Source: a virus
Direction: 5' to 3' (one strand)
IMG/VR virus record: IMGVR_UViG_3300043499_000052
Location: 1 to 24,331 of that record
DNA: 24,331 bases
Numbering within the stretch: position 1 is the first letter of the stretch; every line of letters begins with the position of its first letter. The notes below the pieces were generated by a model that searched no databases, was not told the origin of the DNA, and saw only the letters and a list, made by a program, of their open reading frames with translations. This document shows, piece after piece, positions 1 through 23,485 of the stretch. Made by a program: the position numbers and the translations under genes.

Positions 1-980
1 CAACGCCTACCCAGCTTTTCGGCTGCCATCAATGTGAGCCCGTGGATGCCAGCCCGCGGGTCCACCACCACCTCGTCCTTATTGGACAGAACCTCGAGAA
101 TTTTGATGAACATCGATAGCGGCCGGCGGCCGTCGGTGTAGGTGCTGATGTCATCGCGGACGCGGTGATAATCGCTCGTCAGATCGAGCTTGACCGCTGC
201 GTCCGCGAACAGCACCAGCGGCCAACAGTGCGACTGTCCCACCGGCATAGCCTCTGCGGTGTTGTGGATGAATTGCAGCGTCCAGCGGTATTGCTTGTCC
301 ACTCTGGACATAACCCTGGCCATGTCGTCAACCTCAGTCGCAGCCGCGAACAGGTCCACGTACTGAGCCAGCCAGAACATGTCCGGCCCAACTTCCCGGG
401 GTATGTCCACATAGGCTAGTGACGGCTGCGTGTCCCGCAGGATGGCCACGAACGGGTCCTCACTGGCGTGGCCGCAGTAGAGCCGATGGTCACCGAGTAC
501 CCATATCTGTCCAGGCTGGACGGACAGCGAGGTCACGTCACGACTGACCCGCTGCGCTACCTCTGCCATCGTTTCGGACGCTCGCAGGTCAGCAATGCGC
601 CGGTAAATCGCGGACACGCTGACCTTTTCGCGGTTCATCCCGTCTTCCACCACGGCGGGATAGTCGGCAAACGCTCGCGCGGTGGTCCGCAGCTGTTTGG
701 GTAACGCGGCATGCTCGTCCGACAACCCCGGCGCATGCGTGGCCGGTCCCAACAGCTCACCTAGGCGACGGACCACCGCCACGTGTGTGCGCTCAGCCTC
801 CACCACCTCCTCTTTGAGTTGTCGCAACCGGTGACGCGCACCCACCAACAGCGCGGACAACTCTGCGAGGGTGTCGGGGTCCGTGATCCCCTGAATCTGG
901 TCACGTAGCCCGACAGCCCACCGTCTGATTTCAAACGCCTTTGCCTCTGTGAGGTCCAGGCGCGCGACATCGGTTGACAC
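1..980 (-). CDS. DNA methylase-like protein with degenerate catalytic motifs (partial, C-terminus beyond window)
   Basis: Open from a GTG at 980 to the window edge (326 codons visible). A TAG lies two codons upstream in frame, so GTG is the start, 10 bp after the stop of the SSB-like gene, with a GGGGTAGAGG ribosome site. Residues 1-75 are charged and helical. Residues 95-130 (KQLRTTARAFADYP, then EKVSVSAIYRRI) resemble the helical DNA-binding part of ParB/methylase-type proteins. Residues 160-200 follow the N6/N4 DNA methylase pattern LGDHRLYCGHAS, then YVDIPRE where DPPY is expected. Residues 303-325 (VVVDPRAGIHGLTLMAAEK) match the DPFxGSGTT SAM-binding block with most key residues changed. 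I infer a methylase-derived protein that probably no longer methylates and may be kept as a DNA-binding or replication factor. Homology is fairly clear, function is not. Confidence 0.72.
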   Translation of the reverse strand, partial: MSTDVARLDLTEAKAFEIRRWAVGLRDQIQGITDPDTLAELSALLVGARHRLRQLKEEVVEAERTHVAVVRRLGELLGPATHAPGLSDEHAALPKQLRTTARAFADYPAVVEDGMNREKVSVSAIYRRIADLRASETMAEVAQRVSRDVTSLSVQPGQIWVLGDHRLYCGHASEDPFVAILRDTQPSLAYVDIPREVGPDMFWLAQYVDLFAAATEVDDMARVMSRVDKQYRWTLQFIHNTAEAMPVGQSHCWPLVLFADAAVKLDLTSDYHRVRDDISTYTDGRRPLSMFIKILEVLSNKDEVVVDPRAGIHGLTLMAAEKLGRR

Positions 981-990
981 CCTCTACCCC

Positions 991-1848
991 CTAGAACGGG
1001 ATGCCATCCTCAGCCGGTACCGGCTGAGTAGGCGGTTGCGCGGGCTGAGCGGGTCCCTGAGCGCCTTGCGGGGGTTGCTGGTACCCCAAACCACTAGCGC
1101 CGTTGGGGTAGGTCTGGACGTGTTGCTGGTTCGGGGGTCCAGCTGGACCAGCGGGCATCGGTGGAGGGGGTGGCGCTTGCTGCCCGTAGCTCTCCACCGC
1201 CGGACCCGTGGTCATGTTCGCTCCACCGGGGACCAGTCCAGCGTCCGCGTACTGGACCGCGTTGGGTTGCTGCTGCGGTAGCGGCTGCCCGTACCCGGGT
1301 TGCGTCCCTTGTGGATACTGGCCGGCTGGTGGCTGCCATTGTGGCGCGGGGTTCACCGGCGCCTGCCCGCCTGGACTAGCGGCCATCTTCCGTGATTCCT
1401 CGTGGAAGTTGTTGACCGCGCCAGCCACGTGACGTTCCAGTAGTCCAGGGTTCTGTGCCTGCCAGTGCGATGCCACCTGAGCGTCATAGTCCCCGTACCG
1501 GTCGAACACCACGGACTTACCGTCCGGCACTACGCGGGCCAACAGCACAAACCCCTGTGGATACGCGCTGAGTTGCGAGAGCATCTTCTGGCCGAACACC
1601 AATCGATCCTCATACGCCTGGCCAGCGAACTGTCCCGTTAGGACAATGAGTGTCCCGCGGGCTGCGGGCTTTGCGCCAAAGCTCTGCGTCTGGACCACGG
1701 GGTGGTAACCACCCTGAATCCAGATCACCGTCTGGTTGTGGAGGTTGTCCCACGAAAACGACTGGACAGCCTCAGGCTGGTTCCATGCCGGTGCCGGCGG
1801 TGTGTAGCCACCTTGCTGCGGTGGCCATTGCTGCGGTTGCGGTTGCAT
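991..1848 (-). CDS. putative single-stranded DNA-binding protein (SSB-like, SSB-type acidic tip)
   Basis: 285 aa from ATG 1848, preceded by AGAGAGGGACGAGGT. An in-frame ATG at 1899 would add 17 residues but overlaps the previous gene and lacks a comparable ribosome site. Residues about 25-145 form the only ordered-looking domain, with beta-rich stretches (TVIWIQGGYHPV, RGTLIVLTGQF, GFVLLARVV). The rest is a Pro/Gln/Gly-rich disordered linker of about 130 residues. The protein ends EDGIPF, nearly identical to the DDDIPF tip by which bacterial SSBs recruit partners. Linker plus tip is the classic SSB layout; the core is not a textbook OB fold that I can recognise, so this may be a divergent SSB. 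It is followed at 10 bp by the methylase-like gene, which fits a replication cassette. Confidence 0.62.
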   Translation of the reverse strand: MQPQPQQWPPQQGGYTPPAPAWNQPEAVQSFSWDNLHNQTVIWIQGGYHPVVQTQSFGAKPAARGTLIVLTGQFAGQAYEDRLVFGQKMLSQLSAYPQGFVLLARVVPDGKSVVFDRYGDYDAQVASHWQAQNPGLLERHVAGAVNNFHEESRKMAASPGGQAPVNPAPQWQPPAGQYPQGTQPGYGQPLPQQQPNAVQYADAGLVPGGANMTTGPAVESYGQQAPPPPPMPAGPAGPPNQQHVQTYPNGASGLGYQQPPQGAQGPAQPAQPPTQPVPAEDGIPF

Positions 1849-1861
1849 ACCTCGTCCCTCT

Positions 1862-1999
1862 CTAAAGCTCTCCGAATTCGTCCTCTGCGGTGGGGTCATC
1901 GTCTTCTGTTGGTTCGCGCCACAGGATGATGGCTCCCGTTATCAGCACAGCCGCAGCCACGATGACCCCACCGAGACAGACCGCAAGCGGTGTGCTCAC
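1862..1999 (-). CDS. small single-pass membrane protein (45 aa)
   Basis: GTG start at 1999, overlapping the TGA of the upstream Cys-rich gene (GTGA), with AAGG seven bases upstream. Residues 4-26 are an uninterrupted hydrophobic helix (LAVCLGGVIVAAAVLITGAI) followed by LWRE and a strongly acidic tail (EDDDPTAEDEFGEL). The layout implies one transmembrane segment, orientation not determinable. It lies two genes after the endolysin, so a role in lysis (holin-like or regulator) is possible, but one transmembrane segment and no further signature make that a guess. The stop lies 13 bp upstream of the SSB-like start. Confidence 0.6.
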   Translation of the reverse strand: MSTPLAVCLGGVIVAAAVLITGAIILWREPTEDDDPTAEDEFGEL

Positions 2000-2771: not shown

Positions 2772-3575
2772 TTACTTTTTGACCTCCCCTGGACAACCGA
2801 TGGTGAGATCTGTTGACCCCGGTAGGTAGTGGGAACACCACGGACACAACCGGTCCGGGGTGGCGCGCGCTTTCTCCGGCGGTAAGCCTCTGAGCCGGAC
2901 CAGCCGGTCAATAGCCTCATCAGCCACCGTCTGGTCAAACGGCGCGCGCCAGACGTAGACCCCCGATAGCTCGCCATCTACCGGCACCCACGCGAGAGCA
3001 ACGGTGCGCACGTCCTCACCGCGAGCTTTGAGCGCAGCGCCGTACAGCTGGACCTGTGTCAGGTATTGCGCGGATGGACCATCCCGCCGGATATGCGAGA
3101 TTTTCGATTTGAGTGAGGACTTCCAGTCGATAACCGTTCCAGTCCAACGGTCATAGAGGTCTGCCGTGCCAGGCGTCCCGCGGTACTCCACACTGGACTC
3201 CACGAGGAACCGTCCAGAGCCACCGTCAAGGCGAGTGAAGATCTCAGCCACCGCAGCGTGGAAACCGGACCCCACCAGCGCGCGCAGCGGGTCCCGTAGG
3301 TTCGCGTGCGCCGGTTGCTGTTGGACCTGCGCTGTAGTCCAGGCGGTGGACGTCGCGGGGTCGGAGCGCCGGAGCTTGTAAGCCAACCGCCTGTCACACG
3401 GGTGACCAGCCTCGCTACTGCCTAGGCTCACCTGAGTAGACCGCGCCGTGGTGAAGCTCCCTAGCGCAATCAGGGTGCGCAAGACATCGGCGAGCGCGTA
3501 TGCGTCTGGGTCCAGGGTTGGCGCCTTGACTGGTTGCGGTTGGGCCCACGCTTGCGCTGGTTCAGGTGTTGTCAT
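2772..3575 (-). CDS. Cas4/RecB-like PD-(D/E)XK nuclease with predicted Fe-S cluster
   Basis: 267 aa, ATG 3575 overlapping the preceding gene by 14 bp. The nuclease core is visible: H106, E126, GTADL with D139, then VIDWKSS with D150 and K152, and a QVQLY motif (Q174, Y178). One cysteine near the N-terminus (C60, in GHPCDRRLAYKL) and three near the C-terminus (C244, C247, C261) reproduce the four-cysteine 4Fe-4S arrangement of Cas4 and AddB nucleases. Phage enzymes of this type act on DNA ends in recombination or replication. No CRISPR genes are nearby, so this is a phage recombination/replication nuclease, not a CRISPR adaptation factor. The ~25-residue Ala/Pro-rich N-terminus is probably disordered. 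Confidence 0.82.
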   Translation of the reverse strand: MTTPEPAQAWAQPQPVKAPTLDPDAYALADVLRTLIALGSFTTARSTQVSLGSSEAGHPCDRRLAYKLRRSDPATSTAWTTAQVQQQPAHANLRDPLRALVGSGFHAAVAEIFTRLDGGSGRFLVESSVEYRGTPGTADLYDRWTGTVIDWKSSLKSKISHIRRDGPSAQYLTQVQLYGAALKARGEDVRTVALAWVPVDGELSGVYVWRAPFDQTVADEAIDRLVRLRGLPPEKARATPDRLCPWCSHYLPGSTDLTIGCPGEVKK

Positions 3576-5472: not shown

Positions 5473-5757
5473 TCAGGCGGGCTCAGACGGGTCCCACCGG
5501 TCCACGCCATCGGTCCCGCAGTGAGCACCCTTGCGCCACGCCTCACTCAGCCGCGCAGTGAGGTCCGCGAACGTCCCCACGGTCGGACGTCCCTCGCCTT
5601 GCGCGGTTGAGTATTCGATCATGTCCGCGCGGATATCCCTCAGGTCTGCCTTGATCGCTAGGCATTCCTCACGCTCGCTCTGGCACGCGGTCATACCCAA
5701 CAGCGCGCTAGCGGCCAACACAGCGGCCACAGCGGCGCGCCTGACGGTTCGTTTCAT
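5473..5757 (-). CDS. small secreted lipoprotein, candidate lysogenic-conversion/exclusion factor
   Basis: 94 aa, ATG 5757 with GCGAGGAACCGCAACC upstream. Residues 1-25 are a type II signal peptide: basic start MKRTVRRAA, hydrophobic core, and lipobox GMTAC with C25 as the predicted lipidated residue. The mature ~70 residues are hydrophilic with two more Cys (C32, C80) that might form a disulphide. It is monocistronic, with its own promoter (5796-5823) and terminator (5422-5452), between the early operon and the integrase unit. That is typical of genes expressed from a prophage, such as surface lipoproteins that block superinfection. No family was recognised; the exclusion role is inference from location and localisation. 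Confidence 0.72.
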   Translation of the reverse strand: MKRTVRRAAVAAVLAASALLGMTACQSEREECLAIKADLRDIRADMIEYSTAQGEGRPTVGTFADLTARLSEAWRKGAHCGTDGVDRWDPSEPA

Positions 5758-6045: not shown

Positions 6046-6666
6046 GTGACCAGCGCTTTTAACCCCCGCACCCACATGGAAAAGATCACCGCAGAGGCAG
6101 CCGAGCTAGCCGCGTTGCTCGGTGAGGACTGGACTACCGAGGGGAACCTAGGCCAGTCGGTAGTCCACCGCACCAAGATCGTTTCCGTCTCGATGTTCGG
6201 TGGCGCGGTGAGCTACCGGCGCGGCGGTGAACACCGACGCTCGCTGTTCGCGTCCACCAACACCCCCGCCGACCTTTGGGAGTGGGTTGCACAGGTGGCC
6301 ATCATCGCGGACCCGCGCGACACCGCAGCGGCAGGCGTCCGGCTGATCAGCATGGAAGATCCAGAGGGGATTGCGGGGGTGGAGGCTCAGCGCGCCGCTG
6401 AGTACGGGACTGTGCCGCTGGTGGCGCGCGCGACCCTGGAACCGATCGGCGCGGCCACCGTCACTGAGTGGGTGGTCCAGCTAGGGGAGGAACGTCCTAG
6501 CCGAGTGTGGAACTGGACCGACAGCCGGTACTCACCCCACGACAGTGAGGCAGCCGGACAGCAACACCTAGCGTGGCTGGCTGTCCACCACGGCACCGAC
6601 GCGACGCGCTTCCGTCTGTTGGTCCGCGTGACCTCGGAAACGATCATTGCTGAGGTGACCCTGTGA
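6046..6666 (+). CDS. unknown protein translationally coupled to the integrase
   Basis: 206 aa, GTG 6046 with GAGAGG seven bases upstream. It overlaps the integrase start by four bases (GTGA), so the two are made together. Residues 10-90 contain a helical segment (ITAEAAELAALLGEDW) then a beta-rich part (SVSMFGGAVSYRRGG). The C-terminal half (EWVVQLGEERPSRVWNWTDS to LLVRVTSETIIAEVTL) looks like a small alpha/beta domain. No HTH, catalytic motif or membrane segment was found. Co-expression with the integrase suggests an accessory role in integration or lysogeny control. A reason against a directionality factor is that those are usually made separately from integrase. Confidence 0.6.
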   Translation: MTSAFNPRTHMEKITAEAAELAALLGEDWTTEGNLGQSVVHRTKIVSVSMFGGAVSYRRGGEHRRSLFASTNTPADLWEWVAQVAIIADPRDTAAAGVRLISMEDPEGIAGVEAQRAAEYGTVPLVARATLEPIGAATVTEWVVQLGEERPSRVWNWTDSRYSPHDSEAAGQQHLAWLAVHHGTDATRFRLLVRVTSETIIAEVTL

Positions 6667-8219
6667 CCCGCCGGACAGCCGTACTCAACCCCGTGGCCAC
6701 CGCGCGCATTGCGGAGCTTGTGGCCACGTTGCGGGAGCGCGACACGGACCCCGCCTACGCCACCGCGCCGCGCCTGGACACGTACGCGCGCATCTCGCCA
6801 TCGGCAGACCCCACCGCCGTAAAGGTGGAGCGGCAGACCACCGACGTTCTGGAAATGTTGCTACGCGGCAACTACCGGCTAGGGGAAACCCTCATTGACT
6901 GGAACCTCTCAGCCTGGAAACCGCGAGGCAAGCGACCCGCGTTCCTCAGCGGGCTAGCCCGCGTTGCGTCCGGTGAGTCCAACGGCATCGCAGCGTGGAA
7001 CAGTGACCGGTTGACCCGTCAGCTAAGCGAGGCTGAGCAACTCATTGCGGTGGCCACCGTCAACCGCGCAGTGTTCCTGAGCTACTCAGGTGAGTTTGAC
7101 CTGTCCACATCAGACGGACGGATGATGCTGCGTCTACAAACCATGTTCGCTCAGCAAGAGAGCGACCGTAAGTCAGAGCGACTGGCACGGAAGTACGCGG
7201 CGCAACGGGAGGGTGAGGGACGCAGCGACGGACTAGGCGGTTACCAGTCCACGGACGTGTTTGGCCACGGGGGACGCGACGAGGCAACGCTTACGGCAGA
7301 GCGTGACGCTATCGCGTGGGCCATCCCAGAGGTCACCAACGGCGCTACGTGGCAAGCGGTGGCGGATGAGTGGAACCGGCGCGGGCTGTCCTCACGCGGT
7401 GGACAGCGTTTCAACGTCACTAAGGTGTCCACAATTTTGCAACAGCCGCGCCACGCGGGTTATCTCACGCTAGGGGACCACGGTTCGCGGACCATCGTGG
7501 GTGAGGCTCACAACGCGGTGGCCATCGTGGACAAAGCCACGTGGTCACGGTTCACCGCCGTACTCGCATCCCGCGCAGAGCGCAGCGGGGGACGTCCAGC
7601 TGGAACCACACAGACTCACTTGCTCGGTGGGTTGCTGCGGTGCGCAGAGTGTGGAAACACGTTGCTGGTGTCCGGCCCGTCCTACCGCTGTAACGGTGCC
7701 ATCGGTTGCCGACGCGTCACCGTCAACGCTGCGGTGTTGGATGCCGTGGTGGGTGAGTACGTGGTGGAGACACTGAGCGACCCGCGCAACGGTCACCGAA
7801 TCGCGGCGCGCAACAGCGAGCGTGGCCGCATTGAGGTGGAGCTAGAACGGGTCCGCGAGCGTAAGCGCCGGTTTACCGCGCTGTACCAGGCTGGCAGCCT
7901 TGATGATGATGAGTACGTGCGCGTCACCACCGACAACGCCACGATGGTCCGCGAGCTTGAGTCCAGGCGGGACGCGCTCACCGATGACGGACAACCGGCG
8001 CGGGTCCACAGTCGCGACGAGGCTGAGCGGGAGTGGAGCAAGTCAGAGGGGAACCGCGAGGAACGGCGGGAGCTAGTTCTCTCAGCGTTCCCGCTGGGTA
8101 TCGCGGTGCGGTTGCCGACCGTGGCGCGGGTCAAGTCCACCGCAGCCAACACACGGGACCGACTCAGCCGCATCCTGCCGGGGTGGCTAGAGAGCATCAC
8201 GGCACAACGGGCAGCCTGA
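6663..8219 (+). CDS. int: large serine recombinase (phage integrase)
   Basis: 518 aa, GTG 6663. The resolvase domain carries the nucleophile S45 in YARIS, R57 in VERQ, and D115-R116 with R119 in NSDRLTRQ. Helix E follows (MFAQQESDRKSERLARKYAA). The recombinase domain spans about 190-300. The zinc ribbon uses C327, C330, C343 and C349. A coiled coil (about 365-430, ERVRERKRRFTALY) precedes the C-terminal DNA-binding part. All catalytic residues and domains of a functional phiC31/Bxb1-class integrase are present, with a ~35-residue N-terminal extension. It catalyses attP x attB recombination and, with a directionality factor, excision. It is transcribed against both flanking blocks, and its end is shared with the late block at the inverted repeat 8225-8290. 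Confidence 0.95.
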   Translation: MTRRTAVLNPVATARIAELVATLRERDTDPAYATAPRLDTYARISPSADPTAVKVERQTTDVLEMLLRGNYRLGETLIDWNLSAWKPRGKRPAFLSGLARVASGESNGIAAWNSDRLTRQLSEAEQLIAVATVNRAVFLSYSGEFDLSTSDGRMMLRLQTMFAQQESDRKSERLARKYAAQREGEGRSDGLGGYQSTDVFGHGGRDEATLTAERDAIAWAIPEVTNGATWQAVADEWNRRGLSSRGGQRFNVTKVSTILQQPRHAGYLTLGDHGSRTIVGEAHNAVAIVDKATWSRFTAVLASRAERSGGRPAGTTQTHLLGGLLRCAECGNTLLVSGPSYRCNGAIGCRRVTVNAAVLDAVVGEYVVETLSDPRNGHRIAARNSERGRIEVELERVRERKRRFTALYQAGSLDDDEYVRVTTDNATMVRELESRRDALTDDGQPARVHSRDEAEREWSKSEGNREERRELVLSAFPLGIAVRLPTVARVKSTAANTRDRLSRILPGWLESITAQRAA

Positions 8220-15607: not shown

Positions 15608-16504
15608 CTAGGCGTGCGCTCCCGCTGCCCACGCTGTACCGGACCAGTTGAAATCGAACGTTCCCACTGTCATCTTCTGGCCCGTGGTCCAGGCGGTGAG
15701 CGGGGATGCGACGTAACCCAGACCAGCGAGCTTTGCCGCGTTGGTGGAATCGCTCGCGGTGATGGTGGCTTCCGCTGGGAAGACGTCCCCCGCTTTGGCT
15801 GCGGACTTCACCGGCGGGGTGGGAGCAACGATGTACGTAGTCCCGTTCCACGCAGCCTTTGACGCGTCGCCTAGGACCACGTACAGACCCGTTTCCCATG
15901 CGGTGGTGGGGTTCGCGGTGAGTCCCGCAGCGTTCAGTGCCGCGAGATCTGCCGGCACCGGCGCACCGGTCGGACCGATGTACCCCGGCGCACCAGCGGT
16001 AGCCGTGGCCGCCACGATGACCAGCGGCGCGCCGCTAGCGTCCACAATGCTGTACTTCCCCTTAAGCGGGAGAGTCGCGGTGAACGTGGCATAGGCGCCG
16101 GACGCTGCGTTACCCACGTTGTCCGGCGGGGTGAACGTCACCGTACCGGTGAACCCGTAGCCCACCGGACCGCCAGCCTTGTCGACCCGCGGGTAATAGA
16201 TGAACGTCCCTTCCTCCCCGTCATGCTGTAGGAGGAACATGACGAGACTGTCCAATGTGGTGAAGTCCTGGACACCGGTGATGGCGAGTTGCCAGACCCG
16301 TTCCGCGTTCTCGCTGAAACTCCCCTCAGGACAGAGCGTGGTAAGCGACACCGCGTCACCACCGGTCGAGGTGAGTCCAGCCTGAGTTACCTCACACTGG
16401 AACGTGTGGACCATGCCATCCCGGTCCGTCACCTCAAGCTGAATCCATCGAACGAACAGCGGGTCTACGGAAATGCCCGCTGCGGCTAGCGCTGGTGCTG
16501 TCAT
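15608..16504 (-). CDS. major tail (tube) protein with two C-terminal W-TGQ mini-domains
   Basis: 298 aa, ATG 16504 with AAAGGACAGCAGC upstream. Residues 1-165 are the tube domain: FVRWIQLEVTDRDG, AVSLTTLCPEGSFSENAER, FTTLDSLVMFLLQHDGEEGT, GYGFTGTVTFTPP. Residues 183-227 and 250-297 are two copies of a ~45-residue module ending in W-x-TG, V.G and WnGTxY/W. This module also occurs in the small tail-tip gene at 8297. The modules probably project from the tube surface as decorations, as immunoglobulin-like domains do in other siphoviruses. They are joined by a Gly/Pro linker. The tube assignment is secure from order; the decoration role is inferred. Confidence 0.82.
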   Translation of the reverse strand: MTAPALAAAGISVDPLFVRWIQLEVTDRDGMVHTFQCEVTQAGLTSTGGDAVSLTTLCPEGSFSENAERVWQLAITGVQDFTTLDSLVMFLLQHDGEEGTFIYYPRVDKAGGPVGYGFTGTVTFTPPDNVGNAASGAYATFTATLPLKGKYSIVDASGAPLVIVAATATAGAPGYIGPTGAPVPADLAALNAAGLTANPTTAWETGLYVVLGDASKAAWNGTTYIVAPTPPVKSAAKAGDVFPAEATITASDSTNAAKLAGLGYVASPLTAWTTGQKMTVGTFDFNWSGTAWAAGAHA

Positions 16505-16510
16505 GCTGCT

Positions 16511-16523
16511 GTCCTTTCTGGAC
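16511..16523. promoter_or_regulatory. intergenic copy of dispersed palindrome, upstream of the major tail gene
   Basis: TGTCCTTTCTGGACT (16510-16524) lies in the 27-bp gap between the fusion gene stop and the major tail start, overlapping its ribosome-binding region. A bound protein here would block the highly expressed tail gene. Part of the GTCC-N5-GGAC family described in findings. Confidence 0.42.
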
Positions 16524-16531
16524 TGTCCTGT

Positions 16532-18250
16532 TTAGAAGTAGGTGATGACTTGCACGAATCCGTCGCCACCCTTACCACCCGCGCCGGAATCAAAGCCATT
16601 GACGCTGGCTCCACCTCCACCACCTCCACCGCCGCGTAACCCGTCACCGCCTTTGCCACCAGCGCCACCGCTACCGGCGCCACCGCCAGAGCCACCAACG
16701 CCAGGGAGCATCGGCGCGGCGGGAGGAACGATGATGTCCGAAACACCATCACCGCCGACCACGCCACCGACCCCCGCACCGAAACTTGTGTAGTTCCATA
16801 GCTCAGGTCTGCGGATACCCGCGCCACCGTTGCCAGGGACGTTGCTTGCGGGCATGCCACCGCCACCACCACCGCTGGACGCGCCGGTAAGCGTGGTGAT
16901 CAGACCAACCGCGCCAGCGCCACCGGTTGCGGTAGAGGCTCCCCCCGCGTTGGCACCGGGGACCGCTGTTCCACCGGCGCCGCTGTTCACCGTCCCGCCA
17001 AAGCCAGAGAAACCCTGTAGACCGGTCCACGTATCGCTAGCGCCTGGACCAAAGCGCGTTGCTGAGCTAGTGCCACCGGGGTTCCCGTTCGTGTCATCGG
17101 TGGTCACCGCCGCGCCACCAGCGCCACCAGCGCCAACCGCGCCGTTAACCACGGCAGGCAACGCCGATGATGGAATCTCGCGCAGGATGCCCGCGCTACC
17201 CGCGCCACCACCACCGCCTACGCGAATCGTTCCAGCGGCACCCCGCCGACCGGACCCACCGCCACCGCCTCCACCTTGGACAATGATGGTGTGCGAGGTT
17301 GCTCCCGCTGGTTTGGTCCAGGTGAACGCGCCAGGCGTGGTATACGTGTCGATCTGTGGTGGCTTGACGGTTGGCTCTGGACCGATCGGACCTTGTGGAC
17401 CCGTCGCGCCGGTATCGCCTTTGACGCCTTGCGGACCTTGTGGACCGGCCACGCCTTGCGGTCCAGCTGGACCCGTGGCTCCGGGCTGTCCTTTGTCGAC
17501 GAACAGATCCCACGCTTCTGGGTGGGTCGGTGACGGAAGGTTGGTGTTAGGCGCGGTGGCAATCCAGACCGCACCGCCGTAGTCCACAATGTCGTCAACC
17601 GCGTACGCGGTGGCAAAGTCCCACAGCCCGCGCCAATTGACACCCTCTGGTCCAGCTGGACCGGTAGCGCCGGTGGCACCGTCCACGCCATCCGTACCGG
17701 CGGGACCGGCGGGACCGGCTGGACCAGCCTCGCCAGTCGGTCCGGGGTCGCCTTGCGGTCCCTCGTCGCCAACCGGTCCAGCGGGTCCCTGCGGGCCGAT
17801 CGGTCCGGGGGGTCCCTCAGGTCCAGGTGGACCAGGTAAAGACGCTGGTGGCGGGTTAGGACGGGGTGGAGCTACCCCCGCGCCACCGCTGGTGGGGTAA
17901 CAGACGGACGCTCCCACGAGGCAATGAATCACGTACGCGGGGTAGCTCTGCTCACTGATGGTGGCCACCACGGGTTCCACGCGGACCACCGCGACGTCCG
18001 GACCGCGCAAGAGGTTGACCGCGACGTCCGCGAGGCTGTCAAGCTCCACCTGTGCGTCCTCATCGGACAGACGGCGGCCGATAGCCCACACAGGGACAGC
18101 GAATTGCATCAGCTGGACGTCCACGTCAAGCGTCGGCTTAGCCACCACGTAGCACGGGACCATGTTGGGGTCATCGGGGTGATAGGTCCACGTTTCCGTC
18201 CCTGAATGCCGCAACGCTTCCGCGAGAGCTAGGCGAATCTCCTGGATCAT
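16532..18250 (-). CDS. tail-terminator-like domain fused to collagen repeats, sugar-binding-like module and Gly-rich adhesin domain
   Basis: 572 aa from ATG 18250 (ATGA overlap with the connector stop; an in-frame GTG at 18262 is less likely). Residues 1-118 look like a tail terminator/head-tail joining protein ([20 protein letters not shown] to [11 protein letters not shown]). Residues 139-202 are Gly-X-Y collagen repeats. Residues 205-252 ([20 protein letters not shown], then [10 protein letters not shown] and AWDLF) resemble a CBM5/12 chitin-binding-type module. Residues 254-291 are a second collagen stretch. Residues 300-572 are a glycine-rich domain ([20 protein letters not shown], then poly-Gly), as in phage adhesins. 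Tail terminators are usually about 130 aa and end there. The gene lies exactly in the terminator slot between connector and major tail, so the adhesin should emanate from the neck. Confidence 0.75.
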
Positions 18251-18609
18251 CCGATACCCCACACCCAGCCAGCATCGACGTAGTGCTCTATCAGCCGTTC
18301 CACGTCGGGGTCACGGGACACCACAATGGACACACCCATCTCCGCGAACCCCGTAACCCCCTCCGGCGACTGCCGACGCTTGTAGAGCCGCGCGGCCAAC
18401 ATGAGTACCGCCTGGACCACGGCGGGTTCCTGGACAAACTGAGAATGCACGCGGTCATAGACCCACGTCCCCGCAGCGGCCAGACACATGCCCAACAGCG
18501 CATCATCCTTTGTGGTCTGTGAGCCGATCATCTTTTTGAGTTGGTCCAGTCCTGCGCGCTCACCGCCTCGTGGCGCGCCGGGGGGTGGTGCCGGGGTGGG
18601 GTACGTCAT
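18247..18609 (-). CDS. head-tail connector (gp6-like) protein
   Basis: 120 aa from ATG 18609 (AGAGAGG eight bases upstream); an ORF start at 18660 lacks a comparable site. After a Pro-rich leader the protein shows the helical adaptor pattern: [20 protein letters not shown], then [20 protein letters not shown] and [13 protein letters not shown]. These fit the phage gp6-like connector family that docks under the portal. It is coupled to the downstream fusion gene by ATGA. Confidence 0.75.
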
Positions 18610-18665
18610 TGCGCTGCCTCTCTTGTGGACGGGGGTGACCACGTATGCGGCCGTGGCCACCCCCT

Positions 18666-18712
18666 GGTCCCCTGATCGCGGGGGGTCAGCCCGGGGACCG
18701 TCCTAAGGGGAC
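18666..18712 (-). terminator. hairpin after zinc-ribbon gene, with adjoining palindrome
   Basis: GGTCCCC (18666-18672) pairs with GGGGACC (18693-18699), with an inner TGA/TCA pairing, right after the zinc-ribbon stop. The adjoining GTCCTAAGGGGAC (18700-18712), ending on the stop codon, is an inverted copy of the dispersed palindrome at 2030-2042. Without a T-tract this may be an attenuator that lowers transcription after the capsid group. Confidence 0.45.
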
Positions 18713-19035
18713 TACTTGGGTTCCCCGGTTTCCGGCAGCTCGTTGTCCGGTGTGGACGGTTGGCCGCCTGGCAGCGTGTTGTCCGGCAGATCCGGGGGGA
18801 ACCCCGTGCTGGGGTAGACCGGCTGTCCAGGCAGCGAGTTGTCGGGACGGTTCGGCTGTCCTGGCTGTCCAGGCAGACCGTGTCCGGGGTAAACCGGCGG
18901 GGTCGGCAAACCGTGGCCGGGGTACACCGGACCACCGGGCAGCGAGTTATCGGGACGTCCGGGGTGTCCGGGGTTCGGTAGCGGCTGCCCGCAGTCTGGG
19001 CACTTGATTTGCTGTCCGCATGTTTGGCAGTACAT
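18712..19035 (-). CDS. zinc-ribbon protein with Pro/Gly repeat tail
   Basis: 107 aa, ATG 19035 with GAAGGAGAGCC upstream. Residues 1-19 hold two CxxC pairs (CQTC, CPDC), a compact zinc ribbon. The remainder is a disordered tail of imperfect repeats around RPDNSLPG, PVYPGHGLP and PDNTLPG. Similar PDNxLPG/PGxGLP tails occur in phage structural regions with no known function. It follows the capsid gene, so a capsid-associated or assembly role is conceivable. It overlaps the preceding small gene by 89 bp in another frame. Confidence 0.62.
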   Translation of the reverse strand: MYCQTCGQQIKCPDCGQPLPNPGHPGRPDNSLPGGPVYPGHGLPTPPVYPGHGLPGQPGQPNRPDNSLPGQPVYPSTGFPPDLPDNTLPGGQPSTPDNELPETGEPK

Positions 19036-19174
19036 GGCTCTCCTTCGATTCGTCTTCCGCCGGCGGCGGTTCGGGGTCTGTCTCTTGTGGAGCTTTCCCG
19101 CGGCTCACCACGACGCTGCCTGACACGTGCGCGTCACGCTCGTAGTGCCTGAGCGCGTCCATCGTGGTTCCCAT
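18947..19174 (-). CDS. small hypothetical protein after the capsid gene
   Basis: 75 aa, ATG 19174 with an excellent TAAGGAGCGTCCAC site that overlaps the capsid stop. Residues 1-25 (MGTTMDALRHYERDAHVSGS, then VVVSRG) look like folded protein; residues 30-47 are acidic and Pro-rich. The last ~28 residues overlap the zinc-ribbon gene in a different frame and have a composition suggesting run-off translation. The ribosome site is the main evidence. A +1 frameshift would fuse it to the zinc-ribbon protein, but no clear shift site is seen. Confidence 0.5.
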   Translation of the reverse strand: MGTTMDALRHYERDAHVSGSVVVSRGKAPQETDPEPPPAEDESKESHVLPNMRTANQVPRLRAAATEPRTPRTSR

Positions 19175-19185
19175 GTGGACGCTCC

Positions 19186-20403
19186 TTACGGCGCGAGGTG
19201 AACCGCAGCGTTGGGCACTGGCCGGTACAGACCGACGTAACCCGCATAGGCCACCTGGACACCGAGGACCGATGGCTCAACAACTTGCAACGGGGGGATG
19301 TTCTGCTCGTAGACCTCAAGCGCGTAGTCATTGACAACCCAGAATGAGTCATCCGTGACACCGGGGGTGACCACGAGACGCAGACCCACGGGGTTAGCCG
19401 CGAGGCTGTCAGCCGACATGGTTCCACCGGCATTCCCCGGCGCCAGGAACGGGAACAGCGGACGTCCAGCGGCATCCGACGCGCCACCCAGACGGGCCCA
19501 ACCGAGCGGACCCGCAGCGATGACCGTGGGAAGCTCCCCTGTGGACGCAAACACCATGGCCGCAGCGTCATAGAACGCGGCAATGATCTCAGCGCCGGTG
19601 GCCGCAGCAGCGAGCGTCACCTTGCCGGTGGACTTGCTCATTTCCGCGATAGCGGCTGTCTCCACCGCTTTGGCGTACCGGCGCGCGAGCTGGCCGATGA
19701 CCGTATCGAGCGTGATCACATTCCAGTCGAACGTCTGGCGAGCGACGTTGACGTAGCCACCGAGGGTGAACAGCGCAACGTCATCACTGGCCAGTCGGAA
19801 CGGCTGAGAAACAAGCTCGTCCTTCTGCGCAGCCTGGATACCCACACCGTCCGTGATGTGGTCATCGATGAGTCGCGGCCGGCGGAACGTCGGTCCACTA
19901 GGGATGGACTGAACGCCGAGCGCCGTAACCAGCGGACGCGAGGTGTTGTAGGTGTTGATAACCGGACCCACCAGCGCGTTGGGGAACACCCCATCGAAGT
20001 TGTCCGTAGTGATGTGTGCCGCTGCGCGGTGGTACCGCTTGATGCGGTCCTCTGCCTCTTGCTTGAGGTGGCCTTTGCCCACGTGGGTGTTGAGATAGTC
20101 ACGCAGGTACATACCGATGGAGCTGTATTCCACCGGACCGTCCTGGCCTCCACTCTGGACACCCGAACCGAGCCGCGCCAGGCGGTCCTGCGCAGCCTGC
20201 GAAAGCTCGATGTCTCCACTGAGGACCTCGATCTGCTTGTCGATAGCGGCGATGCGCTCCCGACCACGCGTGATCAGCTCCTGGTCGTTGTCGCTGAGGT
20301 CACGACCCTGCTCCATCGCGGTGTCCGCGAGAGACTTTGCGAGGCTTACCTTTTCCTCGCGTTCCTTGCTGAGTTGCTTGAGCATTGCGTCCATGATGGA
20401 CAT
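19186..20403 (-). CDS. major capsid protein, HK97 fold with N-terminal delta (scaffold) domain
   Basis: 405 aa. ATG 20403 is taken, but AAAGGGA sits directly against it; the ATG at 20394, nine bases from that site, could be the true start. Residues 1-75 are a coiled-coil delta domain (EREEKVSLAKSLADTA, ITRGRERIAAIDKQIEVLSG), which acts as built-in scaffold and is normally removed by the protease. From about 90 come the HK97 landmarks: a long helix/E-loop region, YNTSRPLVTALGVQSIP, the P-domain (LGGYVNVARQTFDWNVITLD) and the A-domain with MVFASTGELPTVIA, followed by LRLVVTPGV and WVVNDYALEVYEQ. The protease is encoded upstream in the same operon. A 140-bp gap precedes it. Confidence 0.92.
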   Translation of the reverse strand: MSIMDAMLKQLSKEREEKVSLAKSLADTAMEQGRDLSDNDQELITRGRERIAAIDKQIEVLSGDIELSQAAQDRLARLGSGVQSGGQDGPVEYSSIGMYLRDYLNTHVGKGHLKQEAEDRIKRYHRAAAHITTDNFDGVFPNALVGPVINTYNTSRPLVTALGVQSIPSGPTFRRPRLIDDHITDGVGIQAAQKDELVSQPFRLASDDVALFTLGGYVNVARQTFDWNVITLDTVIGQLARRYAKAVETAAIAEMSKSTGKVTLAAAATGAEIIAAFYDAAAMVFASTGELPTVIAAGPLGWARLGGASDAAGRPLFPFLAPGNAGGTMSADSLAANPVGLRLVVTPGVTDDSFWVVNDYALEVYEQNIPPLQVVEPSVLGVQVAYAGYVGLYRPVPNAAVHLAP

Positions 20404-20506
20404 TCCCTTTCCCGTTGTCTTGAGTGGCCTTTCGTCCAGACGTCGGGAGAGGAGTCCGTACTAGCGAGGAGTCGACCTGTGTCGAGGTGTCGCATCATGC
20501 GGGGGA

Positions 20507-20533
20507 GTCTCTAGTGGACTGTCTTGCGGGGAC
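20507..20533. promoter_or_regulatory. tandem near-copies of the dispersed palindrome in the pre-capsid gap
   Basis: In the 140-bp gap upstream of the capsid gene (20404-20543), GTCT-CTAGT-GGAC (20507-20519) and GTCT-TGCGG-GGAC (20521-20533) sit 14 bp apart. Each is one base off GTCC-N5-GGAC. The first shares its centre with the exact copy GTCCCTAGTGGAC at 24246-24258. The rest of the gap shows no gene and no clear promoter. Confidence 0.42.
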
Positions 20534-20543
20534 TTGCCTTGCC

Positions 20544-20816
20544 TTACGGTGTTGCCTCTAATGCGTCCAGCCGCGCGAGGATGTCGGTTAGCTGGGTCTG
20601 GATATCAGTGATCGCGGATTGATTAACCGCGATGTCCTGGCTCTGTGTGACGTCCACCGCCTTGATAGCGGCCACGTCAGCCTCTAAGTCCCCCAACCGG
20701 TCCAGGATGGGGAGCAGATCCGGCGGGGTTCCTCCGGCTGGTGGGGGGATGGGTACCGACAACACCAGCGTGTCGCCAGTGTCCACAACGGCCAGACGTT
20801 CGTCATACGCTGACAA
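20544..20816 (-). CDS. small coiled-coil protein of the head region
   Basis: About 90 aa from TTG 20816, chosen because GGGGAGG stands eight bases upstream; an in-frame GTG at 20858 would add 14 residues but has a poorer site and a longer overlap. After a short beta part and Pro-rich hinge (LSVPIPPPAGG), residues about 35-88 form a heptad coiled coil (LLPILDRLGDLEADVAAIKA to LTDILARLDALEATP). Possible head-fibre or capsid-accessory trimer. No catalytic features. Confidence 0.55.
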   Translation of the reverse strand: MSAYDERLAVVDTGDTLVLSVPIPPPAGGTPPDLLPILDRLGDLEADVAAIKAVDVTQSQDIAVNQSAITDIQTQLTDILARLDALEATP

Positions 20817-21336
20817 GGGAAGCGCCTCCCCACGGAATCTCGTTCCTGGACTCACCACGGATCACCGACAGGGACCCCTCTGCCAGGCGCGTCCAGCCGG
20901 TGGACACTGTGGACACGTACAGATCCCACGGCCACGTACCGGTGAACGCGGAATAGAGGTCCGTGACGTCTGCGGGCTGGTGGACCCAGAGTTGAGTCCC
21001 GCTGTCCTGTGTGTACGTCGGGAGCTTGTGACGGGTTTCCAGCGAGGTCCAGGCGCACCGCGCACCGAGTATCGGCGCGGCCACCGCAGACATCACCGTT
21101 TCGTCATCGGGTAGCCAGAGCTTTGGCTGCCACCAGAGTCCCTGTCGGAACGTGAAAGACGTACCGCCACCCTGATGGACCACCGAGTGGACTAGCTCCG
21201 GTACGCGGTCCAGGTAGAACCGTTGGCCCACCACCACGTCCTGAGACTTCACCGGCGCATCGGGCTGGTACAGCGCGAACCCCTGTAGGAAATCGGTCCC
21301 CGTCTCTATCACGAGGTCTACCGCAGCTGCTCTCAC
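20803..21336 (-). CDS. head-region beta-sandwich protein, unknown function
   Basis: 177 aa, GTG 21336 overlapping the protease stop (GTGA). The pattern (ETGTDFLQGFALYQPDAP, then a beta-rich middle and WPWDLYVSTVSTGWTRLAEG, SLSVIRG) resembles the small domain of phage structural proteins that starts 'GdtF...' and ends 'YDL.v...G...rL..G...V', known at the base of head fibres and BppU-type baseplate proteins. With the coiled-coil gene after it, a head-decoration or fibre-anchor function is plausible. No specific family is claimed. Confidence 0.55.
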   Translation of the reverse strand: MRAAAVDLVIETGTDFLQGFALYQPDAPVKSQDVVVGQRFYLDRVPELVHSVVHQGGGTSFTFRQGLWWQPKLWLPDDETVMSAVAAPILGARCAWTSLETRHKLPTYTQDSGTQLWVHQPADVTDLYSAFTGTWPWDLYVSTVSTGWTRLAEGSLSVIRGESRNEIPWGGASLVSV

Positions 21337-22007
21337 CGCGACTCACCCAGCGACGCTCGCACCGCGCGTTCAGCGGGACTAGCTTGCATCCGCGCGAGAT
21401 CTGCCCGCAACGCGTCCAGCCGTGGGGTTCTGGACCCCGCGTTAGCCCGCTCTGCTGCCTCCTGAGCCATGATCAGCGCTTCCGTGCTGTCCAGGTCACC
21501 CCCGGCGCTCTGCGCGTCCCTGGCGTACATCAGGGTGGCACCGACGTAGGCGGGTTCCTCCACCGCCGCAACGTGGTCCACGTAGACGCTCAGCCGGTCG
21601 ATAACCCCGTCATAGGCCAACCGGTCCCGCAGCGAGTAGTAACCCAGCGACAGACCCTTGTGGGTGGACGTGAGGACGTCCAGCGCGCGCTCATAGATGC
21701 CACGGTCCAGGCGGAACCGTGACCACGCTCCGTCCTGACGTTCCTCTAGCGCCACCCCGTGGCCCAACCGGTTGGTGAGGTTGCGGTGGTCATGTCCGTA
21801 GTAGAGGACTACCCGATGCCACGCCTTTGCCGCACCGGCCATAGAGCCGTACGGGAACCGCTCACGCTTGTGTAGTCCGTCCTCGTGGAAATCGACTACC
21901 TCGCCATACGGGACCACTCGTCCATACGCCTCGTGGGTCCGCTCGTCAACGTCGCGAATCTCCAATGTGGATGCGAAATCACGACGGATGAGTTTGCGCT
22001 CTGTCAT
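21333..22007 (-). CDS. prohead maturation protease (HK97-type)
   Basis: 224 aa, ATG 22007 overlapping the portal stop (ATGA). The HK97/S78 serine-protease order is visible: YYGHDHRNLTNRLG with the catalytic His (near 75), GLSLGYYS with the nucleophile Ser (near 139), then DHVAAVEEPAYVGATL, the usual C-terminal motif of the fold. After it comes a helical tail of about 55 residues (LDSTEALIMAQEAAERANA) that could be a self-cleavage or scaffold-binding segment. It would cut the delta domain off the capsid protein. Position between portal and capsid is standard. Confidence 0.88.
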   Translation of the reverse strand: MTERKLIRRDFASTLEIRDVDERTHEAYGRVVPYGEVVDFHEDGLHKRERFPYGSMAGAAKAWHRVVLYYGHDHRNLTNRLGHGVALEERQDGAWSRFRLDRGIYERALDVLTSTHKGLSLGYYSLRDRLAYDGVIDRLSVYVDHVAAVEEPAYVGATLMYARDAQSAGGDLDSTEALIMAQEAAERANAGSRTPRLDALRADLARMQASPAERAVRASLGESR

Positions 22008-23485
22008 GACGCTAGCTCTCCGTTCGTCTGCTCTGCGAGTGGTCCGGCGCTACCGGGGGGAGTGGGTGGGTTGCCAGTGAACGGCTGTAGTTGCGGCGGG
22101 GTGGCTGGCTTAAGCTCCGCAGCGGTGAGGGGTTCCAGGTTCTCCCATGCCCGCGCCTCGTTAACCCTGAGAACCTTGCAGCCGATCCCCGTTTCGTAGC
22201 CTTTCATGCGCTCCACAAAGGATGGTGCGATGAACGATTCAGCGTCATGCCGCGCCACCAGCCCACGCGCGAGGCAGAACCCCGACAGCGCCTGCATGAT
22301 GTTGCGGGAGATAGCTCGCAGCGTCGCGCGCCAGAGGAAATCAAACGCGGACTCTGTGGTGTTGTATGTCAGCGAACTGTCCTTTACGGACAGACCAACA
22401 AAGTAGAGCGGCACCCCGAACACCGATGCAATGCGCGCCTCATCAAAGGTGCGGAGGTCCAACAGACCAACATCGCTCGGTTTGAGGTTGAGGGGGGTGT
22501 ATGTCAACCCTCCACTCAGGACGGCAGGCAACGTCCCACGGGATGCCGCAGCCTCAGCCCACGACCATTTCAGCTCGTCAGCCTGACGTTTGTTGAGCTT
22601 GACCGCAGAGGACAGCACCGCCGTAGGGATGCCGTTGCCAACGGCCAACTCAGTACCCCACCGCTCCAAAGCGTCCGCTGACATGAGGTTGCGTTGGACC
22701 GCCTCTAGTGGACCGATGCCGCGAACCTCGCCAGGCCACACCTGGTATCTAATGTGGAGGATCTGTTCCCGCGGTATCTGCCCGTAACCCTCCAATGTGT
22801 ATACCGGTAGACCCTTCTCCGAGGTCACGGTAACCATGTCGGGGTTCAGCACTACCCACCGCGCCACAGTGCCATCCGCGTACCGCGCCGTGGGGACCAC
22901 AAACGCAGCGCCGCGAATCAGCATGCTGTTGGCTATGGCCTTGATGGCGTCCACCATCGATGTGTAGATCTCAGGTTCGGGGTTCTCTGTCCACGGTGGA
23001 GCGTCAACCGGTGTGCTGTCCTTGGTAACCAGGATCGGCATGGTTCCGAGTGACCGGCCGATAAGGTCCACGCATGCGTACACTGTGGACACTCGACCCT
23101 CTAGCAACGTGCCACCGAGGAACCGACCGTTACCGCCAAACTGACGGTTGGGACCATGCTCCGCAAAGAATGGGGGTTCCCACCCACCGGGGTAACCGGG
23201 GAAGCGTGTCCCGTGGGGGAACCCCCATCCCCGCGCCTTGTCCTCGTCAGTCGGACCCCATACGTGAGCACCCTCCACAAAGTCGCCTGGACCACCAAAC
23301 TCAATGCGTGTCTCAGCTGGACGCGGTGGACCTACGAACACACGAGGTCCACCACCCCACCAGTAGCCACCAGCAATGTTGGTCGCGGTGGACGGGCTCT
23401 GTGCGTAGACCACGGCGGGACTCACCACGTTGGCTGGCACGACGCTGCCACGTGCGCGGGTCCGCAGAACGGGGAGGTTAGGCAT
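22004..23485 (-). CDS. portal protein (HK97 family)
   Basis: 493 aa, ATG 23485 with AAGGACGG. Landmarks of the family: VYACVDLIGRSLGTMPILV (about 133-151), WVVLNPDMVTVTS, REQILHIRYQVWPGEVRGIG, LQ-type crown helix region, and KDSSLTYNTTESAFDFLWRA. The first ~120 residues are an atypical Gly/Pro-rich extension (NIAGGYWWGGGPRVFVGPPR, GFPHGTRFPGYPGGWEPPFF) that has no counterpart in typical HK97 portals, probably on the capsid-interior or clip side. The C-terminus is Pro-rich. It forms the dodecameric DNA channel. Confidence 0.92.
   Translation of the reverse strand: MPNLPVLRTRARGSVVPANVVSPAVVYAQSPSTATNIAGGYWWGGGPRVFVGPPRPAETRIEFGGPGDFVEGAHVWGPTDEDKARGWGFPHGTRFPGYPGGWEPPFFAEHGPNRQFGGNGRFLGGTLLEGRVSTVYACVDLIGRSLGTMPILVTKDSTPVDAPPWTENPEPEIYTSMVDAIKAIANSMLIRGAAFVVPTARYADGTVARWVVLNPDMVTVTSEKGLPVYTLEGYGQIPREQILHIRYQVWPGEVRGIGPLEAVQRNLMSADALERWGTELAVGNGIPTAVLSSAVKLNKRQADELKWSWAEAAASRGTLPAVLSGGLTYTPLNLKPSDVGLLDLRTFDEARIASVFGVPLYFVGLSVKDSSLTYNTTESAFDFLWRATLRAISRNIMQALSGFCLARGLVARHDAESFIAPSFVERMKGYETGIGCKVLRVNEARAWENLEPLTAAELKPATPPQLQPFTGNPPTPPGSAGPLAEQTNGELAS

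Follow-up and report, generated by a model that had tools for sequence, protein, structure and literature searches.

The window, that is, the whole stretch of DNA analysed here, is the 24,331-base virus record IMGVR_UViG_3300043499_000052 (positions 1 to 24,331). According to its gene list and profile matches, the structural genes are transcribed leftward and include those of the terminase (24329→23496), portal (23485→22004), capsid (20403→19186) and tape measure (14576→12411). A serine-type integrase was assigned from profile matches at 6663-8219, and an early-gene operon is transcribed leftward from approximately 5116 to the left end of the window. This operon encodes, in order, a helix-turn-helix protein, a short protein that aligns with part of a family of RecE-like proteins, an unknown protein, an exonuclease (2772..3575, minus strand; PHROG 1674 exonuclease, E 8.2e-42), another unknown protein, an SSB-like protein (991..1899, minus strand) and the methylase-like protein that is the subject of this study (3..980, minus strand). 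Scanning the window for Rfam families and tRNAs gave no hits. Two other proteins may be mentioned. The gene at 5473-5757 (minus strand), which separates the integrase from the early operon, encodes 94 residues; these were seen by eye to include a signal sequence as well as LLGMTAC, which is lipobox-like, so that the product is a candidate lysogeny or superinfection-exclusion lipoprotein. In the 576-residue protein at 16532-18262 (minus strand), GPP/GPQ repeats of collagen type occur together with a Gly-rich tail; it matches profiles of tail-fibre and collagen-like tail families, and its first ~110 residues read by eye as a tail-completion or connector protein.

That the phage exists and recurs is shown by two other IMG/VR contigs, 3300043634_000014 (L098) and 3300045043_000020 (L099), which match the window at 99.98-100% identity across 6-7 kb surrounding the capsid gene (window 16189-23403 and 16189-22358, respectively). 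The methylase-like gene lies outside both spans; the coordinates of the former contig imply that it extends about 1.2 kb beyond the right end of the window. Judging by sequence resemblance, an actinobacterial host is likely, since the portal resembles Mycobacterium phage portals (32% identity at best among the matches listed) and a distant homolog of the exonuclease is located in a Micromonospora contig.

The original prediction had placed the methylase-like gene in a tightly spaced operon beside an SSB-like gene. The spacing is as described, with a gap of 10 bases between the two genes, and the upstream protein has a Gly/Gln/Pro-rich tail ending in GIPF, which is compatible with an SSB-like protein; its sole profile match was PHROG 870 (E 8.8e-5), a family of unknown function. 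Homologs of the SSB-like gene follow the exonuclease gene in three viral records (L002, L089 and L090), and no gene related to the methylase-like one was found in the records with this gene pair. When the 19 other proteins of the window were scanned against PHROGs, none matched a methyltransferase.

The start codon of the methylase-like gene is a GTG at 980, separated by ten bases from the stop of the SSB-like gene; the frame runs without a stop down to base 3, leaving 326 codons in the window and the C-terminus past its left end. The three codon positions of this frame have GC contents of 0.69/0.43/0.75. When codon usage was scored after training with other genes of the window, the frame obtained 0.149 per codon, versus -0.003 and -0.125 for the other two frames. 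The codon and GC pattern is normal throughout the entire frame. The gene is a coding sequence with no visible decay, and the earlier description of its frame as otherwise intact was correct. A frameshift concealing a genuine motif was considered and rejected: the other frames score lower, and the protein has no DPPY- or FxGxG-type string elsewhere.

Residues 150-198 of the protein match PHROG 498, 'DNA methyltransferase' (E 6e-8). PADLOC gave a type II methyltransferase (E 8.8e-7), its methyltransferase models matching residues 145-197 and 285-326, and Pfam N6_N4_Mtase (PF01555) matched residues 283-326 with 17.1 bits, under the curated cut-off of 26.7, the domain being truncated by the window end. 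Forty-nine distant phage methylases, not including the query, were combined into a profile, against which the protein reached 54.8 bits in two aligned blocks (144-208 and 271-326), compared with 7.4 bits for the best of 20,000 shuffles; this score is somewhat generous because the relatives were chosen with the help of the query, whereas the PHROG 498 E-value is independent of that choice. By these comparisons the resemblance to methylases far exceeds chance expectation, and the gene is clearly a descendant of DNA-methylating enzymes. In the profile alignment motif IV precedes motif I, as in the beta-class N6/N4 amino-methyltransferases (PF01555).

The beta-class amino-methyltransferase-like domain, delineated from the 54.8-bit profile and from VIA-align, covers residues 152-326 (3..527, minus strand), its C-terminal end missing. 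The AlphaFold2 model of this domain has a mean pLDDT of 67 and is poor at residues ~220-275. In VIA-align, the 20 best entries for the domain model were all DNA methyltransferases (Z 5.2-7.8; 112-133 residues matched, rmsd 3.4-4.5 Å), among them M1.HpyAVI, MboIIA, M.BceJIV, CcrM, M.PvuII, M.RsrI and EcoP15I, and the next, unrelated entry had a Z of 3.7. Foldseek found no match for the domain model at E 0.001, and when the full model was searched, neither the PDB (at E 0.001) nor the set of viral models yielded a match. That a methylase fold is recognisable, as originally stated, is borne out by profile matches over both halves of the domain, and the strings quoted in its support are present: LGDHRLYCGHAS at residues 162-173 and VVVDPRAGIHGLTLMAAEK at residues 304-322.

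The relatives used to assess the motifs were derived from at least 600 candidate stretches, 101 of which were confirmed; 80 loci were kept, and one of the two patterns used to find them contains part of motif I. Two sets of methylase frames were taken from the fetched loci: 99 frames by blastp (E up to 0.05) with no motif filter, and a separate set of 89 frames required to carry both motifs, of which 67 remained after redundancy removal. These 67 were ordered by how long their middle part is; the first 49 in that order make up alignment A5, and alignment A6 contains 34. Counts of 49/49 at motif positions are hence conditional on motif-based selection, and the unfiltered counts are those of the 99-frame set.

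The conserved block ahead of motif IV is kept as LGDHRLYCGH (468..497, minus strand) except that CGD became CGH (D171H); position 171 is D in 48/49 relatives. At the motif IV position (residues 192-195; 396..407, minus strand) the profile alignment places DIPR in lieu of DPPY, in the context V-D-I-P-R-E-V versus T-D-P-P-Y-G/N-V in the family; the fourth position is Y or W in 49/49 relatives, themselves selected for the motif. Ahead of motif I, TDGRRP (120..137, minus strand) replaces HPT(Q/M)KP, where both H and K are found in 49/49 relatives. Motif I itself (39..62, minus strand) aligns as DPRAGIHG with DPFxGSG and is one residue longer, the full strings being D-P-R-A-G-I-H-G-L-T here and D-P-F-x-G-S-G-T/S-T in the family; the alignment thus confirms the claim that the cofactor motif had been replaced by RAGIHGLT. 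A search of the 326 residues for an intact copy elsewhere, either a [DNS]PP-type tetrapeptide or FxGxG, found none.

Within the two confidently aligned blocks, 24 positions are near-invariant (at least 47/49 relatives; counted from A5, with R166, L162 and others with lower counts excluded). The protein keeps 15 of them and changes nine, namely D171H, T191V, P193I, Y195R, H282T, T284G, K286R, F309R and S313H, and all nine fall in CGD, TDPPY, HPTxKP and FxGSG. Residues G157, W160, G163, H165, C169 and G170 of the LGxHRLxCG region are kept, as are D192, P194 and P287 and, around motif I, G311, G314, T316, A319, E321 and R325. The middle of A5 (residues ~205-270) is unreliable, and IIWxK may match LQFIHN (235-240), not 256-260; W258 and K260 were left out of the losses for this reason. 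Between W160 of WxLGxHR and position 309, where motif I normally has its Phe, the protein spans 149 residues, versus 164-477 in 89 relatives. The original prediction did not mention the losses D171H, H282T, K286R, F309R and S313H or the shortened middle. Read from the alignment, the losses are concentrated in the functional motifs and the structural residues are retained; together with the predicted model this describes a putatively degenerate active site on an intact fold.

Among the 99 unfiltered methylase frames, [DNS]PP[YFWH] is present in 96 and [FY]xGxG in 93, and none has lost both motifs. Ile at the second position of motif IV and a lost Phe do occur in these frames; a lost Tyr together with a lost GSG loop occurs in none. 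Three phage methylases read DIPY: L008 2207-2962 (Lactobacillus phage Lrm1), L064 1039-1878 and L079 3338-4270, each with an intact GSGST in the loop CAGSGST or VAGSGST (DP[CV]AGSGST). The claim that the catalytic DPPY reads DIPR is correct at the aligned position, and the change of P to I does not stand as a sign of ruin; because of the three DIPY enzymes, only the change of Tyr to Arg appears damaging at motif IV. A DIPY variant would escape simple DPPY searches. The other frames without [FY]xGxG are L012 (FMGSDTT), L065 (FLSSGST) and L039, which is cut by the locus end. In the Micromonospora contig with the distant exonuclease homolog, a DPPY methylase (L091, 92-907, plus strand) has the loop DPTAGVCSTG, not FxGxG, which warns that motif I alone is not diagnostic. 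Two neighbouring or overlapping methylase frames were observed in 14 of the 78 relative loci (L013, L020, L023, L027, L029, L030, L033, L038, L039, L042, L050, L055, L072 and L075), always one DPP[YW] and one SPPY frame, a probable adenine/cytosine pairing that recurs as a two-gene arrangement.

Searches for close relatives of the protein found none in phages at E 1e-5; with E up to 10, matches came from 109 phage records, none of which reached 60% identity, as well as from 18 plasmid records. Neither IMG/VR, queried with six octapeptides of the protein, nor the GTDB contigs yielded a close relative. Weak matches were present in 6/396 and 8/298 sampled actinobacterial genomes, and the N-terminus alone matched in 24/394 at E up to 0.01. 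Of the loci from the actinobacterial searches, 16 were realigned (L092-L097, L104-L107, L116-L120 and L122): in three (L092, L093 and L096) the match was short and local, to methylases whose motif is intact, and the other 13 contained nothing readable as a relative. Degenerate-pattern scans of IMG/VR matched DPRAGIHG in four contigs, none of them in a methylase-like protein, and GxHRLxCGHA 13 times, none in a methylase, so that these scans revealed no second protein with the same altered motifs.

The N-terminus was predicted by AlphaFold2 to be all-helical. Residues 1-78 (747..980, minus strand) form a long, coiled-coil-like helical hairpin, predicted with good confidence (pLDDT block means 69-92), in which one helix covers 2-29 and the other 35-77. 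It resembles many unrelated helical hairpins and coiled coils (VIA-align Z 9-10.7); as these matches are generic, they speak only to the fold class and a likely oligomerisation, possibly dimerisation. Residues 88-151 (528..719, minus strand) are modelled at low confidence (pLDDT block means 43-64) as short helices, possibly a helix-turn-helix, and a match to DUF6471 at E 0.16 is not significant. No ParB match was found in the protein in Pfam (E up to 1) or in PHROGs (E up to 0.1), and PHROGs does detect ParB in the relatives L009 and L013. The proposed derivation from ParB-methylase-type enzymes consequently survives for the methylase part, which is of the PHROG 498 type where ParB fusions occur, and not for the protein's own N-terminus. 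The whole protein has a pI of 5.8 and a net charge of -7 over 326 residues; residues 95-135 carry +3, and the methylase-like part, with -3.4 net charges per 100 residues, is more acidic than 48/49 relatives. Such composition speaks against DNA binding by that part and seems far too mild for a DNA mimic.

From these results we infer that the methylase-like protein is probably catalytically dead, and we give about an even chance to its being a pseudo-methyltransferase that has kept the fold, lost cofactor binding and catalysis, and works as a non-catalytic subunit. In such a protein a beta-class amino-methyltransferase domain would be joined to a helical N-terminus in place of ParB. It would be co-expressed with the exonuclease and the SSB-like protein of the phage, would dimerise through the predicted N-terminal hairpin, and would hold or position a hypothetical partner instead of methylating DNA. 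This partner may be a replication or recombination protein, or an active methylase encoded past the contig end; the latter is plausible because paired methylases are common (14/78 related loci). Precedents for such a role are METTL14 with METTL3, and the recognising versus the methylating Mod subunit in EcoP15I.

A methylase gene in early decay, with catalysis lost recently, the frame still unbroken and nothing maintained, would account for part of the data, and we hold it to be unlikely while taking it seriously. Accessory methylases in phages are, as is generally known, gained and lost; the short internal loss and several catalytic-motif substitutions fit relaxed selection, and close relatives that might reveal constraint were not found in our searches. 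We simulated neutral decay by random point mutation, with indels excluded, stopping each run once nine of the 24 marked residues were altered; the frame was still open in 2.6%, 3.5% and 3.1% of 3,000 runs each at transition biases of 1, 2 and 4, respectively, and indels would reduce these percentages further. Long neutral decay is disfavoured by this result, which rejects it only at about 3%, and a recent loss would be compatible with it. Early decay is further opposed by the normal GC by codon position along the frame and by the intact structural glycines and LGxHRLxCG block, beside nine near-invariant residues changed without a stop. The original view of a maintained pseudoenzyme, not a decayed gene, is upheld in part, by the clustered losses, the codon periodicity and the 2.6-3.5% of open frames.

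A highly divergent but active methyltransferase, in which both motif IV (DIPR) and the cofactor loop (AGIHG) are atypical, strikes us as distinctly unlikely. The retention of D192, P194, G311 and G314 makes weak or atypical activity conceivable, and DIPY with an intact loop in L008, L064 and L079, as well as DPPY with DPTAGVCSTG in the Micromonospora methylase, count in its favour; yet all those relatives retain the motif IV aromatic, which is Arg here, and the change of HPTxKP to TDGRRP, that of CGD to CGH, and a middle shorter than in 89/89 relatives measured point the other way. A DNA-binding replication, partition or regulatory protein on a methylase scaffold would suit the replication/recombination operon, the possible helix-turn-helix-like helices at 95-151 and the net +3 over 95-135, but we consider it very unlikely: no ParB or helix-turn-helix profile matched above noise, the pI is 5.8 overall with the methylase-like part more acidic than in 48/49 relatives, and the shortened segment is the usual site of the DNA-recognition part. 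For the suggested partition or DNA-binding role nothing positive emerged, and the same is true of a decoy distracting the host restriction-modification machinery, which is hardly credible: resemblance to a methylase is all that favours it, whereas PADLOC matches methyltransferase models only and a net charge of -7 in 326 residues is too weakly acidic for a DNA mimic.

The putative pseudo-methyltransferase shares with the PHROG 498/PF01555 phage methyltransferases, many of them fused to ParB, the block order of LGxHRLxCG, motif IV and motif I, the predicted fold, and profile similarity in both halves. It differs from them in that the motif IV aromatic, FxGSG, CGD and HPTxKP are lost, the middle is shorter, the helical N-terminus has no ParB match and the Pfam score is under the cut-off. 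With the PHROG 67-type DIPY methylases (Lactobacillus phage Lrm1, L064 and L079) it has in common Ile at the second motif IV position; these, however, keep Tyr and GSGST and do not have the LGxHRLxCG block.

Pseudo-methyltransferases that support active ones are known in eukaryotes. In METTL14, as described in an eLife 2016 article (PMC5023411), the DPPW equivalent is EPPL, the aromatic is absent, the cofactor site is occluded, and the protein supports METTL3. A methyltransferase fold with the motif IV aromatic lost and the cofactor site unusable is thus a feature of METTL14 that our protein, judged by its residues, may share; METTL14, however, belongs to a eukaryotic MT-A70 RNA methylation complex with a known partner enzyme, whereas here the protein is from a phage and the partner is hypothetical. 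In the Mod dimer of EcoP15I, of the beta class, DNA recognition falls to one subunit and methylation to the other, and intertwined helical N-terminal domains contribute to the dimer interface, according to a Nat Commun 2015 article (PMC4490356). The likeness lies in a beta-class methyltransferase with a helical N-terminus, the hairpin here being predicted only; in EcoP15I, though, both subunits are identical intact proteins, whereas our protein has lost the motifs and its dimerisation is deduced from the predicted hairpin. Phage ParB-methyltransferase fusions are described as frequent, with a suspected anti-defence role (PMC12704722). Another article (PMC7736820) describes plasmid replication-associated methyltransferases that act on single strands and lie in a region of the plasmid where ParB homologs and Ssb proteins are also encoded; in this light the SSB neighbourhood is less odd.

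In the open-licence literature, which leaves most subscription journals outside its scope, no title on a phage-encoded pseudo-methyltransferase or inactive methylase was found. A bolder version of the pseudo-methyltransferase reading, speculative and improbable in our estimate, would see in the protein a first-seen phage class and a phage counterpart of METTL14: a catalytically dead subunit pairing via its helical N-terminus with an active methylase encoded immediately downstream or with the SSB/exonuclease machinery, and controlling the sites or the timing of methylation or recombination of the phage DNA. As a single incomplete gene without close relatives, the case is a variant of a known theme and of moderate interest. 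An automatic 'DNA methyltransferase' annotation can mislead about activity. If the gene is maintained, the phage would reuse a DNA-modification enzyme as a scaffold within its replication/recombination module.
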